A DNA stretch of 44,328 nucleotides from Hyphomicrobiales bacterium (GTDB lineage: Bacteria; Pseudomonadota; Alphaproteobacteria; Rhizobiales; Rhizobiaceae). The notes beneath the pieces were generated by a model. It saw only the letters and a program-made list of their open reading frames with translations. It was not told the DNA's origin and did no database searches. Position 1 is the first letter of the stretch. Each line of letters starts with the position of its first letter. Below are positions 10,518 to 16,309 of this stretch, piece by piece. A program made the translations under genes and the position numbers. Location: NCBI GenBank assembly GCA_011087605.1, contig JAALLE010000025.1, positions 1 to 44,328 on the forward strand, read 5' to 3'.

Positions 10518-11798
10518 ATGGCTGCCAATTTGACTTTGCCAGGCTCAACCCGACCGTTTGCAGCGTTCGAATGGATGCTGGCGCGCCGATACCTGGGCAG
10601 TCGTCGCAAGGAAACATTCATTTCGGTAATTTCTGTGATTTCCTTCATCGGCATTATGCTGGGGGTGACAACCCTGATCATCGTGATGGCCGTCATGAAT
10701 GGGTTTCGCACCGAACTGCTGGATCGAATTCTTGGCATCAATGGTCACCTCGTCGTGCAACCAGTACATTCTGAACTGACTGATTATGATGAAGTTGCAA
10801 AGCGCCTTGAGACACTTGAGGGAATCACGATTGCGTTGCCGCTGATTGAAGGCGAAGTCCTGGCGTCGGGAGGCAAAGGTGGTAACGGCGCGCGGGTCCG
10901 CGGGATGCGCGAAAACGATCTTAAACGTCTGCCTGCTGTGGGGGACAAGATTGTCGAAGGCACGCTTGACGGATTTGATGATTCAGAGGGTGTCGCCATC
11001 GGCGTGAATATGGCAGCAAATCTGGGACTAACTCTTGGAGATCAAATCACCTTGATTACTCCCGATGGGAACCAGACAGCATTCGGTGTTTCTCCTCGCG
11101 TCAAAGCCTATCCAGTCACCGCCATCTTCAAGATGGGCATGTCCGAATATGACAACATTTTCGTGTTCATGCCGCTGCAGGAAGCTCAGCTATATTTTAA
11201 TCACGAAGATACGGTTTCCGTAATTGAGGCATTTGTTGAAGATCCTGATGCCGTTGAAGAACTGGCCCGCCGTGTAGAGGAAGGGATCGACAGACCAATC
11301 TACGTCACCAATTGGCAGCAGCGAAACACCACCTTTTTTCAGGCTCTGGAAGTAGAACGCAATGTGATGTTCCTGATTTTGACGCTAATCCTGCTGGTTG
11401 CAGCGCTCAACATCATATCTGGTCTGTTCATGTTGGTAAAAGACAAGGGCGGTGATATCGCCATTCTGCGCACCATGGGAGCAACGCGCGGTTCAGTCAT
11501 GCGTGTATTCCTGATTACAGGTTCGAGCATCGGCGTATTTGGAACATTGGCCGGTTTCGCACTTGGAGTGGTCTTCTGCCAGAACATCAACAGCATCAAG
11601 GACCTGATCACACGACTCAGTGGTTCGCAGGTATGGGATCCGACGGTTCGGTTTCTCAGTGAAATTCCGGCTCGCCTGGATGTCACCGAAACCAGCCTTG
11701 TGGTTTTGATGGCTCTGGGGCTGTCGCTATTGGCAACCATTTTTCCGGCGTGGCGTGCTGCACGTCTCGATCCAGTCGAGGCGCTGCGTTATGAGTGA
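10518..11798 (+). CDS. lolC: lipoprotein-releasing ABC transporter permease LolC/LolE
   Basis: This is the inner-membrane permease of the Lol system, which extracts outer-membrane-destined lipoproteins and hands them to LolA. The 426-aa protein shows the FtsX/MacB layout: one helix near residues 35-60, a large periplasmic domain (about 65-270), and three C-terminal helices (near 285-310, 335-360 and 395-415), ending in [15 protein letters not shown], the usual family end. ATG 10518 has CGAGG at 10508-10512; GTG 10488 and TTG 10485 upstream would overlap the proS end. Only one permease gene is present, so a homodimer is likely, whereas E. coli uses a LolC-LolE pair. The stop overlaps the lolD start (ATGAGTGA), indicating translational coupling. 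Confidence 0.93.
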
Positions 11799-12474
11799 GC
11801 CGATTCTCCAGATGAACGGCATCAATCGCACGTATGGCCAGGGCAAGAACTCGCTGACTATTTTAGATGATGCAGAACTTTCAATCGATCGTGGTGAACT
11901 CGTGGCTCTTGTTGCGCCATCTGGGGCCGGTAAATCTACATTGCTCCACCTTGCCGGTCTGCTGGAACGACCCGATGCCGGCAGCCTGACCATTGGTGGA
12001 GTTGAATGCAGTAAATTAAATGACGACAAGCGAACCCGCATGCGCCGCCTCGACATCGGATTTGTTTATCAGTTCCATCATTTGCTGCCAGAATTGGACG
12101 CCCGTGAGAATATCGCGCTTCCGCAACTGATTGCCGGGAGCAATAAGCAACAGGCCGACGCAAGTGCAGATAAGCTGCTAAGCCATCTCGGCATTGCCAA
12201 ACGGGCAACTCATCGGCCATCACAACTGTCAGGCGGTGAGCAGCAAAGGGTGGCTATTGCCCGCGCGGTGGTCAATAAGCCAAAAGTCCTGTTGGCCGAC
12301 GAACCAACCGGAAATCTCGATCCGTCAACATCGGACCTGGTATTTGACGCCTTGACCGATCTGGTGCGATCCACCGGCCTGGCCGCGCTGATCGCCACCC
12401 ACAATCACGCACTTGCAGCCCAAATGGACAGAACAGTTACGATTGAAGACGGCAAAATCGTACCGCTCAGCTGA
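11791..12474 (+). CDS. lolD: lipoprotein-releasing ABC transporter ATPase LolD
   Basis: LolD is the cytoplasmic ATPase that powers lipoprotein release by LolC/E. The 227-aa protein has Walker [10 protein letters not shown], the Q-loop in [21 protein letters not shown] (the LLPE segment is characteristic of LolD), signature [14 protein letters not shown], Walker [13 protein letters not shown] and switch His in IATHNHALA. The start at 11791 overlaps the lolC stop; a longer frame from 11755 is the overlap with lolC and not credible. The gene is followed by the regulatory region of the small SidA-like gene, with no clear terminator except a short inverted repeat at 12482-12512. Confidence 0.96.
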
Positions 12475-12481
12475 CATTAAC

Positions 12482-12512
12482 CAAGATTGAGAACAAAGAT
12501 AGAACAATCTTG
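12482..12512. repeat. 8-bp inverted repeat around the first LexA box
   Basis: CAAGATTG (12482-12489) and CAATCTTG (12505-12512) are perfect inverted repeats with a 15-base loop that contains the LexA box at 12491-12505. There is no T tract, so a terminator role for lolD is doubtful. It may simply extend the operator. Confidence 0.45.
12491..12505 (+). promoter_or_regulatory. LexA box 1, perfect GAAC-N7-GAAC
   Basis: The sequence GAACAAAGATAGAAC matches the alphaproteobacterial LexA consensus exactly. It lies 95 bases upstream of the 31-codon gene at 12600 and close to a TTGACT (12510-12515) that could be its -35 element. Confidence 0.85.
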
Positions 12513-12537
12513 ACTGATTCGAAAAAGAACATATGGT
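12510..12537 (+). promoter_or_regulatory. putative SOS promoter
   Basis: TTGACT (12510-12515) and TATGGT (12532-12537) are spaced by 16 bp, a plausible sigma-70 type promoter. LexA box 1 ends just before the -35 and LexA box 2 covers the -10. TATAAAAT at 12543-12550 is an alternative -10 without a matching -35. Confidence 0.4.
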
Positions 12538-12541
12538 GAAC
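12527..12541 (+). promoter_or_regulatory. LexA box 2, perfect GAAC-N7-GAAC
   Basis: GAACATATGGTGAAC is a second exact match, 36 bp downstream of the first. Two perfect 8-of-8 matches within 51 bp in one short intergenic region are very unlikely by chance and indicate tight SOS control of what follows. Confidence 0.85.
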
Positions 12542-12599
12542 ATATAAAATAATGCAGCTGTTGGAACAGCTTGCAGCATATATTGAAAGGTAGGTTCTT

Positions 12600-12695
12600 A
12601 TGTCGCTTCTTGCTCGCAATCTGTTTTCGGCAATTTCCATGTCAATTTTTCTGTTCATGATCTTCACCTGGGTCACCATTCTGTCCGCAGTCTGA
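12600..12695 (+). CDS. 31-aa single-helix membrane peptide, SidA-like SOS cell-division inhibitor
   Basis: A 31-codon open frame begins with ATG at 12600, preceded by GAAAGG (12585-12590) and TAGG (12591-12594). The peptide starts MSLLARNL, with one Arg at position 6, and from Phe9 to Val31 is hydrophobic with Phe, Ile, Met and one Trp (Trp24), long enough for one membrane helix with the N-terminus probably cytoplasmic. Two perfect LexA boxes stand upstream and dnaE follows. In Caulobacter, SidA is a 29-aa SOS-induced inner-membrane peptide that blocks division through FtsW/FtsN, and as I recall its gene also lies beside dnaE. Function here is inferred from size, topology, SOS sites and synteny; I cannot align the sequences. 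Confidence 0.75.
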   Translation: MSLLARNLFSAISMSIFLFMIFTWVTILSAV

Positions 12696-12739: not shown

Positions 12740-15700
12740 GTGAGTCTAAAGGGTCGATCCCGCGGGATCGTGAAATGCAGTTTGTCCAAGCGCGAAGAAA
12801 TCAATGCGGCACTTGCAGGTGGCAGCACAGCGGCATCTGAGAATTCCAAGCCCTTTGTGCATCTTCATGTGCATTCAGCATTTTCTCTCTTGGAAGGCGC
12901 GTTACCACTCGCCAGTCTGATTGATCTGACGATATCAAATGAGCAACCGGCGCTGGCGGTTACCGACAGGAGCAATTTGTTTGGCGCGCTGGAATACTCC
13001 GAAAAATCGATTCCCAAAGGTCTGCAACCGATAATCGGCTGCACGCTGGAAGTCGATTTTGACAGTTCCTTGCAACCTTCCTCCGAGCAGGAACTTTCAA
13101 GAACCGCCAGTTCGCAGCAAGCCATGCGGGCACAGCCCATTCTGGTGTTGCTGGCTGCAAATCCCACAGGATATGGCAACTTGGCAAAGCTCGTCAGTCT
13201 GGCCTATCTTGATGATGCAGCAGTTTCACGCGCACACATCACCCTGGACCAGTTGCGCAAATACTCTGATGGGTTGATTGTCCTGACAGGTGGACCCAGC
13301 GGTGCTCTCAACATGCCATTACTGGCGGGGCAGGAGACCATGGCGGCGGCCCGTCTTGAAAGCCTAAAACAAGTTTTTGCCGACCGGCTTTATATCGAAC
13401 TGCAAAGACATCAGGGATATTCCCGCAGCGTCGAGAACAAGTTGATCGATCTTGCCTATGACAGGGACGTTCCACTGGTTGCCACTAACGAGGTCTATTT
13501 CGGCAAGCGCGAGGACTATCACGCCCACGATACTTTGATCTGCATTGCTGAAGGTCGCATGGTGGTGGAAGAAGATCGACGAAAACTGACACCGGACCAT
13601 TACTTTAAGTCGTCGGCTGAGATGCATGCCCTGTTTGCGGATCTTCCAGAAGCTCTCGACAACACAGTTGAGATTGCGCGGCGCTGTGCATTTAAGGTGC
13701 CGAAGCTCGACCCCATTCTGCCGTTCTTTACGGATGGATCCGGTGATGACCCACTGGAATCGGAAGCCAGGGAATTAATCCGACAGGCTCGTGAAGGCTT
13801 GCAGCGGCGTCTGGAGGTACACCAACTTGCCGACGGCCACACAAGAAAGGACTATGACGACCGACTGGAATTTGAACTTGGAGTGATCACCAAGATGAAG
13901 TTTCCGGGCTATTTCCTCATCGTTGCCGACTTTATCAAATGGGCAAAGGCGCAGGATATTCCTGTTGGGCCGGGTAGGGGGTCAGGCGCAGGTTCACTGG
14001 TCGCCTGGTCCTTGACGATTACCGATCTGGATCCGATGAAATTCTCACTGCTGTTTGAGCGATTTCTCAATCCTGAACGCGTCTCAATGCCCGACTTTGA
14101 TATCGATTTCTGCCAGGATAGGCGCGACGAAGTCATCCGATATGTGCAGGACAAATATGGTCGGGACCAGGTTGCTCAAATTATTACGTTTGGAACATTG
14201 CAGGCGAGAGCCGTATTGCGGGATGTCGGGCGCGTCCTTCAAATGCCCTATAGTCAGGTGGATCGTCTTTGCAAGATGGTGCCCAACAATCCAGCAAATC
14301 CAACATCACTGGCTGAGGCAGTTACCAGTGAACCGGGTCTTGTTGAAGCCCGCAAGGCCGAAGAAGAAGTCGATCAACTGATCAATATCGCTCTGAAACT
14401 GGAAGGTCTTTACCGTCACGCGTCGACCCACGCGGCCGGCATTGTGATTGGAGACCGTCCGCTCGACAAATTGGTACCGCTATATCGCGACCCCCGTTCG
14501 GATATGCCGGTGACCCAGTTCAACATGAAATGGGTGGAACAGGCAGGTCTGGTGAAGTTTGACTTCCTCGGTCTGAAAACACTGACGGTTATCCGCAAAA
14601 CCCAACAATATCTGGGTCAACGAAAAGTCGAAGTCGATATTGATGCGCTGGCGCTCGATGATAAAAAGACGTTTGAAATGCTGCAACGGGGAGAAACCGT
14701 CGGCGTGTTCCAGTTGGAATCGATGGGGATGCGCAAGGCGCTGATCGGCATGAAGCCCGACCAGTTTGAAGATATTATCGCACTGGTTGCCCTTTATCGC
14801 CCCGGACCGATGGAAAACATTCCCGTCTACAATGCCCGCAAACATGGCGAGGAGGAGCCGGACTATTATCATCCAAAGATCGAGAGTGTTCTAAAGGAAA
14901 CACAAGGCGTCATAATCTATCAGGAACAGGTGATGCAGATTGCTCAGATCCTGTCGGGATATTCTCTGGGCGAAGCGGATATGCTTCGCCGCGCCATGGG
15001 CAAGAAAATCCGTGAAGAGATGGAAAAACAGCGCAAACGCTTTGTCGACGGTGCCGTTGAACGGGATCTGAAAGCCGCTCAGGCCAGTCACATTTTTGAT
15101 GTTCTGGCAAAATTTGCCGATTATGGGTTCAACAAATCCCATGCCGCCGCCTACGCCCTGGTCAGCTATCATACGGCCTGGCTGAAGGCCAATCATCCGG
15201 TTGAGTTTCTGGCTGCCCTGATGACCCTTGATATGGGCAATACCGACAAACTCCATGACTTTTACCGTGAAGGAAAACGCGAGGAAATTGAAATCGTTGC
15301 GCCTTCGGTCAACACGTCAGACGTCGAGTTTGCCGTGCGGGGAGGCAAAATTTATTACGCACTTGCCGCGATCAAGGGCGTCGGCGCGCAAGCTGTGGCG
15401 CATATTGTTGATATTCGACAGGCAGACGGACCATTTGAAAGCCTGACCAACTTCTTTTCACGCGTCGATCCCAAACAGCTCAACCGCAAGATGCTGGAAA
15501 ATCTCATCCATGCCGGAGCCTTTGACTGTTTTGGTCCAAGTCGAGAGCAACTCATCGGTGGTCTCGACCGGTTGATAGGCCACGCAACCCGAGTGGCCGA
15601 CAATCAGGCAATTGGCATGACCGACATGTTTGGTGGAGATTCAGGAGAAACCGCCGTTTCCCTGCCGGAAGTTGCCCCCTGGATGTCAGCGGAAAAACTG

Positions 15701-16306
15701 CTGCGCGAGTTCCAATCCGTGGGTTTTTACCTGTCGGCCCATCCGCTGGACGAATACAAGCAGACGCTGGACAAGATGCGGGTTCAGAACTGGTCAGATT
15801 TTCAGGCCGCCGTCAAAAAGGGAGCTTCTGCTGGCAATCTGGCGGGGACGGTGACCAGCCTGCAGCAACGCAAGACGCGCAATGGAAACCGCATGGGCAT
15901 TTTGCAGATATCTGATCCCACCGGTCAGTATGAAGCTGTTTTGTTTTCTGAAAGCCTCGAACAGAACAAGGAATTGCTGGTTGCGGGCAACGCGATTGTT
16001 CTCAATGTGGCCGCCGAAGACAAACCAGAAGGCATATCCTTGCGCATAAATTCGGTTAAAAGTCTGGAGGCGGAAGCGGCCCGAAAACAGTTCCAGCTGA
16101 ACATATTCGTTCGCGATGAAAGACCGCTTGAAAGCATTTCCAAACAGATCGGCAAACGCGGGGAGGGGCAGGTCAGTCTGATTGTGCTTAATCAGGCAGA
16201 AAAGCAGGAGGTCGAAATTGGCATTCCAGGAAAGCGATTAATTTCCCCAGCCGTCGCTGGTGCAATTAAGGGCATACCGGGCGTGATTGATGTGGAACTG
16301 ATCTAG
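12740..16306 (+). CDS. dnaE: DNA polymerase III alpha subunit
   Basis: This is the replicative polymerase catalytic subunit. The 1188-aa protein has an N-terminal PHP domain (HLHVHSAFSLLEGALPL, about residues 42-58), the polymerase active site (PDFDIDFCQDRRDEVIRYVQDKYG around 450-475), the fingers region with GVFQLES and ALYRPGPMENI, tandem HhH, and a C-terminal OB fold near LAGTVTSLQQRKTRNGNRMG. The start is uncertain: GTG 12740 gives the longest product, GTG 12770 and TTG 12782 are alternatives, and none has a good ribosome binding site. Residues before the PHP domain are poorly conserved, so all are possible. Placement after the LexA boxes raises the chance that dnaE is SOS-influenced. Confidence 0.97.
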   Translation: MSLKGRSRGIVKCSLSKREEINAALAGGSTAASENSKPFVHLHVHSAFSLLEGALPLASLIDLTISNEQPALAVTDRSNLFGALEYSEKSIPKGLQPIIGCTLEVDFDSSLQPSSEQELSRTASSQQAMRAQPILVLLAANPTGYGNLAKLVSLAYLDDAAVSRAHITLDQLRKYSDGLIVLTGGPSGALNMPLLAGQETMAAARLESLKQVFADRLYIELQRHQGYSRSVENKLIDLAYDRDVPLVATNEVYFGKREDYHAHDTLICIAEGRMVVEEDRRKLTPDHYFKSSAEMHALFADLPEALDNTVEIARRCAFKVPKLDPILPFFTDGSGDDPLESEARELIRQAREGLQRRLEVHQLADGHTRKDYDDRLEFELGVITKMKFPGYFLIVADFIKWAKAQDIPVGPGRGSGAGSLVAWSLTITDLDPMKFSLLFERFLNPERVSMPDFDIDFCQDRRDEVIRYVQDKYGRDQVAQIITFGTLQARAVLRDVGRVLQMPYSQVDRLCKMVPNNPANPTSLAEAVTSEPGLVEARKAEEEVDQLINIALKLEGLYRHASTHAAGIVIGDRPLDKLVPLYRDPRSDMPVTQFNMKWVEQAGLVKFDFLGLKTLTVIRKTQQYLGQRKVEVDIDALALDDKKTFEMLQRGETVGVFQLESMGMRKALIGMKPDQFEDIIALVALYRPGPMENIPVYNARKHGEEEPDYYHPKIESVLKETQGVIIYQEQVMQIAQILSGYSLGEADMLRRAMGKKIREEMEKQRKRFVDGAVERDLKAAQASHIFDVLAKFADYGFNKSHAAAYALVSYHTAWLKANHPVEFLAALMTLDMGNTDKLHDFYREGKREEIEIVAPSVNTSDVEFAVRGGKIYYALAAIKGVGAQAVAHIVDIRQADGPFESLTNFFSRVDPKQLNRKMLENLIHAGAFDCFGPSREQLIGGLDRLIGHATRVADNQAIGMTDMFGGDSGETAVSLPEVAPWMSAEKLLREFQSVGFYLSAHPLDEYKQTLDKMRVQNWSDFQAAVKKGASAGNLAGTVTSLQQRKTRNGNRMGILQISDPTGQYEAVLFSESLEQNKELLVAGNAIVLNVAAEDKPEGISLRINSVKSLEAEAARKQFQLNIFVRDERPLESISKQIGKRGEGQVSLIVLNQAEKQEVEIGIPGKRLISPAVAGAIKGIPGVIDVELI
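12755..12770. repeat. 16-bp perfect palindrome at the dnaE start region
   Basis: CGATCCCGCGGGATCG is a perfect palindrome. It lies within the first codons if dnaE starts at GTG 12740, or directly in front of the alternative GTG at 12770, where an RNA hairpin could affect initiation. Confidence 0.5.
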
Positions 16307-16309
16307 AAC

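Follow-up and report, generated by a model that had tools for sequence, protein, structure and literature searches.

We analysed a stretch of 44,328 nucleotides from a Hyphomicrobiales bacterium (GenBank assembly GCA_011087605.1, contig JAALLE010000025.1, positions 1 to 44,328; hereafter the window), in which a gene of 31 codons preceded by two LexA boxes lies directly before dnaE. An initial annotation, made from the letters of the window alone, had described two perfect LexA boxes at 12491-12505 and 12527-12541, a promoter-like sequence, and a 31-codon frame with a ribosome binding site followed by dnaE, and had named the frame a probable counterpart of SidA, the SOS-induced division inhibitor of Caulobacter. 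Both boxes are exact, and the other elements are present as described. The features of the locus are:

11755..12474, + strand: LolD-type ABC ATPase, the upstream neighbour (PF00005; LolD by position and S. meliloti gene order)
12491..12505, + strand: LexA box 1, GAACAAAGATAGAAC, exact GAAC-N7-GAAC match
12510..12537, + strand: sigma-70-like promoter, TTGACT-16-TATGGT, 9 of 12 consensus letters (consensus scan only)
12527..12541, + strand: LexA box 2, GAACATATGGTGAAC, exact GAAC-N7-GAAC match, overlapping the -10-like hexamer of the promoter-like sequence
12587..12594, + strand: ribosome-binding-site-like AAGGTAGG, just 5' of the peptide open reading frame (ORF), read from the sequence
12600..12695, + strand: candidate sidA-like gene, ATG start, 31 codons, MSLLARNLFSAISMSIFLFMIFTWVTILSAV, one predicted membrane helix
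12740..16306, + strand: dnaE, DNA polymerase III alpha (PF07733, PF17657, PF02811); start codon ambiguous, GTG at 12740 or a later codon

The 31-codon ORF evolves as a protein-coding gene

The 31-aa peptide evolves as a protein under purifying selection. The pooled ratio of nonsynonymous to synonymous change (pN/pS) was 0.33 in the peptide frame versus 1.0 and 2.1 in the +1 and +2 frames, and the gene differs from its nearest relative by eight synonymous changes and one nonsynonymous change. Of the 10 genus sequences, eight entered the test, L014 and L017 having failed a strict pattern. The initial annotation would have been refuted by a lack of synonymous bias in close relatives, and the bias was found.

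Hydropathy of the peptide reaches 2.24 over 17 residues, and AlphaFold2 gave a single helix at residues 3-30 with a mean predicted local distance difference test score (pLDDT) of 95.9. These predictions agree with the one membrane helix proposed earlier and point to a single-helix membrane peptide, the membrane location being predicted. Conservation along the peptide has a 101-degree period (permutation p 0.039) and picks out one face of the helix; this face includes an almost invariant Phe and ends N-terminally in Arg-Asp, which suggests a protein partner.

Peptide and LexA boxes occur together upstream of dnaE

The boxes fit the GTTCN7GTTC motif reported for LexA of Caulobacter (PMC12700426), and the genome contains lexA with an exact LexA box just upstream. 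GAAC-N7-GAAC occurs five times in the window against 1.5 expected, a number reached in 1 of 100 shuffles. The pairing of two boxes on one strand at a distance of 36 bp goes beyond chance, and their conservation in relatives does so most clearly.

When 101 genomes were searched with the peptide, 14 gave a match at E<=1, and matches at E<1e-4 were obtained in 10 of the 15 genus genomes. Searches with the DnaE N-terminus located dnaE in 14/15 genus, 150/151 family and 378/387 class genomes. We then compared 198 dnaE upstream regions: 14 from the genus, 88 further ones from the family (28 picked by program and 60 chosen by hand), 29 from the class, 30 of 79 from f94 (Caulobacteraceae) and 37 of 39 from named genomes; L092 was dropped, and L281-L282, which are not orthologous, were left out. 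Small upstream ORFs were scored with a profile of the peptide at a threshold of 12 bits, the best minus-strand control reaching 5.3. The peptide was detected in 122 of the 198 regions (10/14 genus, 19/28 and 32/60 family, 4/29 class, 30/30 Caulobacteraceae, 27/37 named). An exact box lay within 160 bp in 110 of these 122; of the remaining 12, ten have two one-mismatch boxes (at least one near box was seen in 16/220 control windows) and two are cut by contig ends.

The initial annotation had proposed looking for conserved short frames with LexA boxes upstream of dnaE, and such frames recur in many relatives. Among 196 distinct dnaE loci, with boxes counted up to 740 bp from the DnaE motif, 106 had the peptide and an exact box, 14 the peptide only, none a box only and 76 neither (Fisher 2e-40), two of the 76 having little upstream sequence (L253, 66 bp; L273, 321 bp). 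Two control motifs were found in 4/196 and 1/196 loci. All ten peptide-bearing dnaE loci of the genus have an exact box, and at least two exact boxes are also present in L025, L026, L027, L028, L029 and L033. A 0.9-Mb genome placed in the window's genus (locus L031) has neither peptide nor box at dnaE.

In the family, the profile matched at E<=0.02 in 139 of 151 genomes, and eight of the 12 genomes without a match measure 2.0 Mb or less. In the order, where a profile mainly of family peptides was used, 72/150 genomes matched at E<=0.5, of which the weak matches may be chance; 30 of these loci were read, and 21 had a box and dnaE, two dnaE only, five a box only and two neither, including one locus cut short (L180). 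In the class, 83/387 genomes matched at E<=0.3, the weak ones mostly probably by chance, with boxed matches before dnaE in families f44, f50 and f94; a wider profile, matching 44/387 genomes at E<=0.1, added families f45 and f108. Four class-level matches with neither dnaE nor box (L193, L198, L201, L208) were treated as chance. The region from Methylobacterium bullatum (L357) contains no exact LexA box. Overall, the gene has a wide distribution, covering the order and several class families; at most other dnaE loci of the class it was not detected.

The peptide is probably a diverged homologue of SidA

SidA of Caulobacter crescentus is an inner-membrane protein of 29 aa, controlled by LexA, that acts through FtsW (PMC4211646), and dnaE of that species is CC1926 (PMC1839093). 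C. crescentus resolves to C. vibrioides in the NCBI taxonomy. In C. vibrioides DSM 9893 (L244) a 29-aa peptide with an exact box precedes dnaE, which bears out the statement, in the initial annotation, that Caulobacter sidA adjoins dnaE; in a scan of named genomes, 26 more Caulobacteraceae-type loci likewise had dnaE preceded by a peptide of about 29 aa. With the NCBIfam SidA model NF033228, whose cut-off is 35 bits, the C. vibrioides peptide scored 72.4 bits and 18/18 Caulobacteraceae peptides matched. In a mixed set (A4), 8/29 peptides matched this model at E<=10, counted for the set as a whole.

The peptide of the window shares with SidA of C. crescentus (NCBIfam NF033228) the LexA box, the size (29-31 aa), the single helix, the position directly before dnaE and a nearby lolD, as well as the pattern R-[DEN]-x-[AL]-[AS]-[LF]-x-S-x-x-x-F. 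It differs in having 31 aa, two boxes and the core FLFMI, where SidA of Caulobacteraceae has FVWMM, and in being unrecognised by NF033228. In C. vibrioides, a divergent ORF, named nucleoside-hydrolase-like by eye from its sequence, separates lolD and sidA. A LolD-type pattern was found within 700 bp in only 20 of 85 dnaE-linked loci, because lolD lies farther off in Caulobacteraceae (L197, L200, L244), and was not used as support.

Profiles of the two groups were compared with hhalign, which aligned 27 columns with a probability of 95.3% and an E value of 2.2e-8. A profile built without Caulobacteraceae members also matched the gene before dnaE in all three Caulobacteraceae genomes sampled from the class (E 0.001-0.013). 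The 18 Caulobacteraceae peptides hit no consistent Pfam family. For 36 members from outside Caulobacteraceae no family came up consistently, the best E values being 0.048 in Pfam, 0.018 in NCBIfam and 0.0096 in PHROGs, and a phage search with one family member gave no match.

The gene is therefore filed as SidA-like, on a diverged branch outside the curated family, since NF033228 fails to reach the window peptide. The boxes, size, predicted helix, position, profile similarity and purifying selection, together with the recurrence of the boxed gene in many relatives, support the reading as a SidA counterpart. We regard the window gene as a diverged SidA-like homologue, probably orthologous by position, that lies outside the curated equivalog.

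A counterpart in Sinorhizobium meliloti and the gene neighbourhood

Sinorhizobium meliloti Ak57 has the same gene, between lolD and dnaE, with two exact boxes; in this species it has 28 codons. Ribosome profiling (Ribo-seq) of S. meliloti 2011 revealed a translated small ORF, sORF25, in the 5'-untranslated region (5'-UTR) of dnaE1, with no function assigned to it (PMC10117765). Presumably sORF25 is the peptide ORF of strain Ak57.

The gene order in the window is class II tRNA synthetase, MacB/FtsX-type permease, ABC ATPase, peptide and dnaE. An annotated S. meliloti record has the same order (proline-tRNA ligase, lipoprotein-releasing permease, ABC ATP-binding protein, dnaE); its gene table, which comes from a collection with incomplete tables, leaves the interval containing the peptide without an annotated gene. 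The ABC ATPase was assigned to LolD from its position after the MacB/FtsX-type permease and from this annotated order. The 3.7-Mb record L354 (CP090106.1), titled S. meliloti pSymB, contains proS and dnaE as well as a gene for a lipoprotein-releasing permease, and so resembles a chromosome mislabelled as a plasmid.

Further LexA-like sequences were noted in the genome that contains the window. An exact GAAC-N7-GAAC at 16295-16309 of the window spans the dnaE stop codon and abuts the ATG (16310) of a DUF938 methyltransferase-like gene; it may be chance. A second exact LexA box pair (L284, G000:C126:60262-60300) lies between two reverse-strand ORFs and precedes an ORF of about 143 aa with no assigned name, possibly a novel SOS gene. 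At G000:C94:20708-20886 there are six LexA-like matches in two runs with 11-bp spacing and GAACAAAACAA units.

Copies away from dnaE and alternative explanations

We fetched 40 profile matches that lie away from dnaE by their coordinates; one of the genomes concerned (G128) had no dnaE match. An exact LexA box is present upstream of 31 of these copies, 30 of which lie elsewhere than the detected dnaE and one in the genome without a dnaE match. The nine box-free copies sit in genomes with another copy that is box-bearing or dnaE-linked. These box-free SidA-like peptides (L306-L309, L311-L315) are perhaps SOS-independent paralogues. A LolD-type gene was found upstream of 14 of 20 checked copies away from dnaE (13 within 300 bp, one at 860 bp), as if dnaE had moved off and sidA had stayed.

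Two other functions were considered for the boxed ORF. The peptide could be an SOS-induced membrane toxin of the TisB/DinQ kind, encoded in a type I toxin-antitoxin system and depolarising the inner membrane. It is of the same size class, with LexA control and a single helix, and E. coli tisB, which is SOS-induced and depolarises the membrane, provides a precedent (PMC8145889). However, the profile similarity, from a comparison that covered Caulobacter SidA, and the common position link the peptide to that protein, the conserved face with its Arg-Asp end suggests a protein partner, and an Rfam scan of the window gave tRNAs only, although new RNAs could escape Rfam. We regard such a toxin as improbable. 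Slightly less probable still is a leader peptide, that is, an upstream ORF (uORF) whose translation regulates dnaE. The gene stands just before dnaE in many loci, and sORF25 lies in the dnaE1 5'-UTR, a location whose small ORFs have been named as possible uORFs (PMC10117765). However, a leader would not be expected to survive separation from its gene, so the boxed copies away from dnaE (31 of 40) weigh against this role; the gene is not always in cis to dnaE, and the LolD-type gene upstream of 14 of the 20 checked copies argues in the same direction. A chance ORF under chance boxes would be in keeping with the genome-wide rate of single boxes, but codon-level selection and the co-occurrence of box and peptide already contradict it, and its probability is negligible.

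Identification of the gene as a sidA orthologue has to be weighed against several observations. NF033228 gives no match at E<=10 to the window peptide, nor to nine other family members from outside Caulobacteraceae. Across the genome, single GAAC-N7-GAAC matches (53 forward and 76 reverse) are at chance level, the reversed motif giving 59 and 55, and conservation in relatives therefore has to carry the argument. Among the relatives, 4 of 14 genus dnaE loci have neither peptide nor box, and the peptide is absent at dnaE in 25/29 class loci and 10/37 named ones, one of which (L253) has only 66 bp upstream. The peptides that initially seeded the profile had been recognised next to boxes; when the 60 seed loci were removed, the counts were 46 with both, 14 with the peptide only, none with a box only and 76 with neither (Fisher 4e-24), and the pattern was unchanged. 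The p value of the helical periodicity is modest and two conserved columns had served as anchors, and the window peptide has Asn, seen in 7/56 clusters, where most members have Asp or Glu. sORF25 is presumed to be the Ak57 peptide from its place at dnaE. Finally, so short a helix could arise by convergence, which position and boxes make unlikely.

Proposed function

On balance, we consider it likely that the window gene is a diverged orthologue of sidA that would halt division through FtsW, with induction, arrest and FtsW binding expected from the Caulobacter mechanism. That mechanism is the simplest reading, and we infer each of its functional steps. DNA damage would activate RecA and bring about self-cleavage of LexA, the loss of which would free the promoter at 12510-12537. 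The peptide would then enter the inner membrane, its Arg-bearing N-terminus on the inside, and would pack on the FtsW (FtsW/I/N) complex through one conserved helix face, keeping the complex inactive until the damage is repaired. Read-through could increase dnaE simultaneously. The genome encodes one FtsW/RodA-type protein.

Other division inhibitors provide a comparison. Like SidA-type peptides, DidA of C. crescentus is small, has a single helix and inhibits division by acting on FtsW/I/N, but unlike the window peptide it has 71 aa, is SOS-independent and DriD-driven, and binds FtsN (PMC4211646). YneA and SulA are SOS-induced division inhibitors, as is proposed here, and YneA also acts on FtsW (PMC13396833). 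The genes sulA, yneA and sidA have been called unrelated (PMC4211646), and we set them apart by description, not by sequence.

More tentatively, and less likely than not, sidA and dnaE may form an old SOS operon of Hyphomicrobiales, Caulobacteraceae and some other alphaproteobacterial lineages, in which one LexA-controlled transcript would supply the division brake together with the replicative polymerase and would raise arrest and replication capacity in step. In this reading the box-free paralogues would be a second, SOS-independent branch added in some genomes, and genome-reduced lineages would have lost the brake.

Among the matches listed in the literature searched, we found neither an SOS division inhibitor for rhizobia nor a report of SidA outside Caulobacter, which is no proof, as key subscription papers lay outside the search. 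The gene thus offers a testable candidate for an SOS division brake in rhizobia, S. meliloti included, and a possible function for the orphan translated small ORF sORF25. A checkpoint described in one species would have a much wider, diverged family, missed by the NCBIfam SidA model and, outside Caulobacteraceae, also without a consistent Pfam or PHROGs match.
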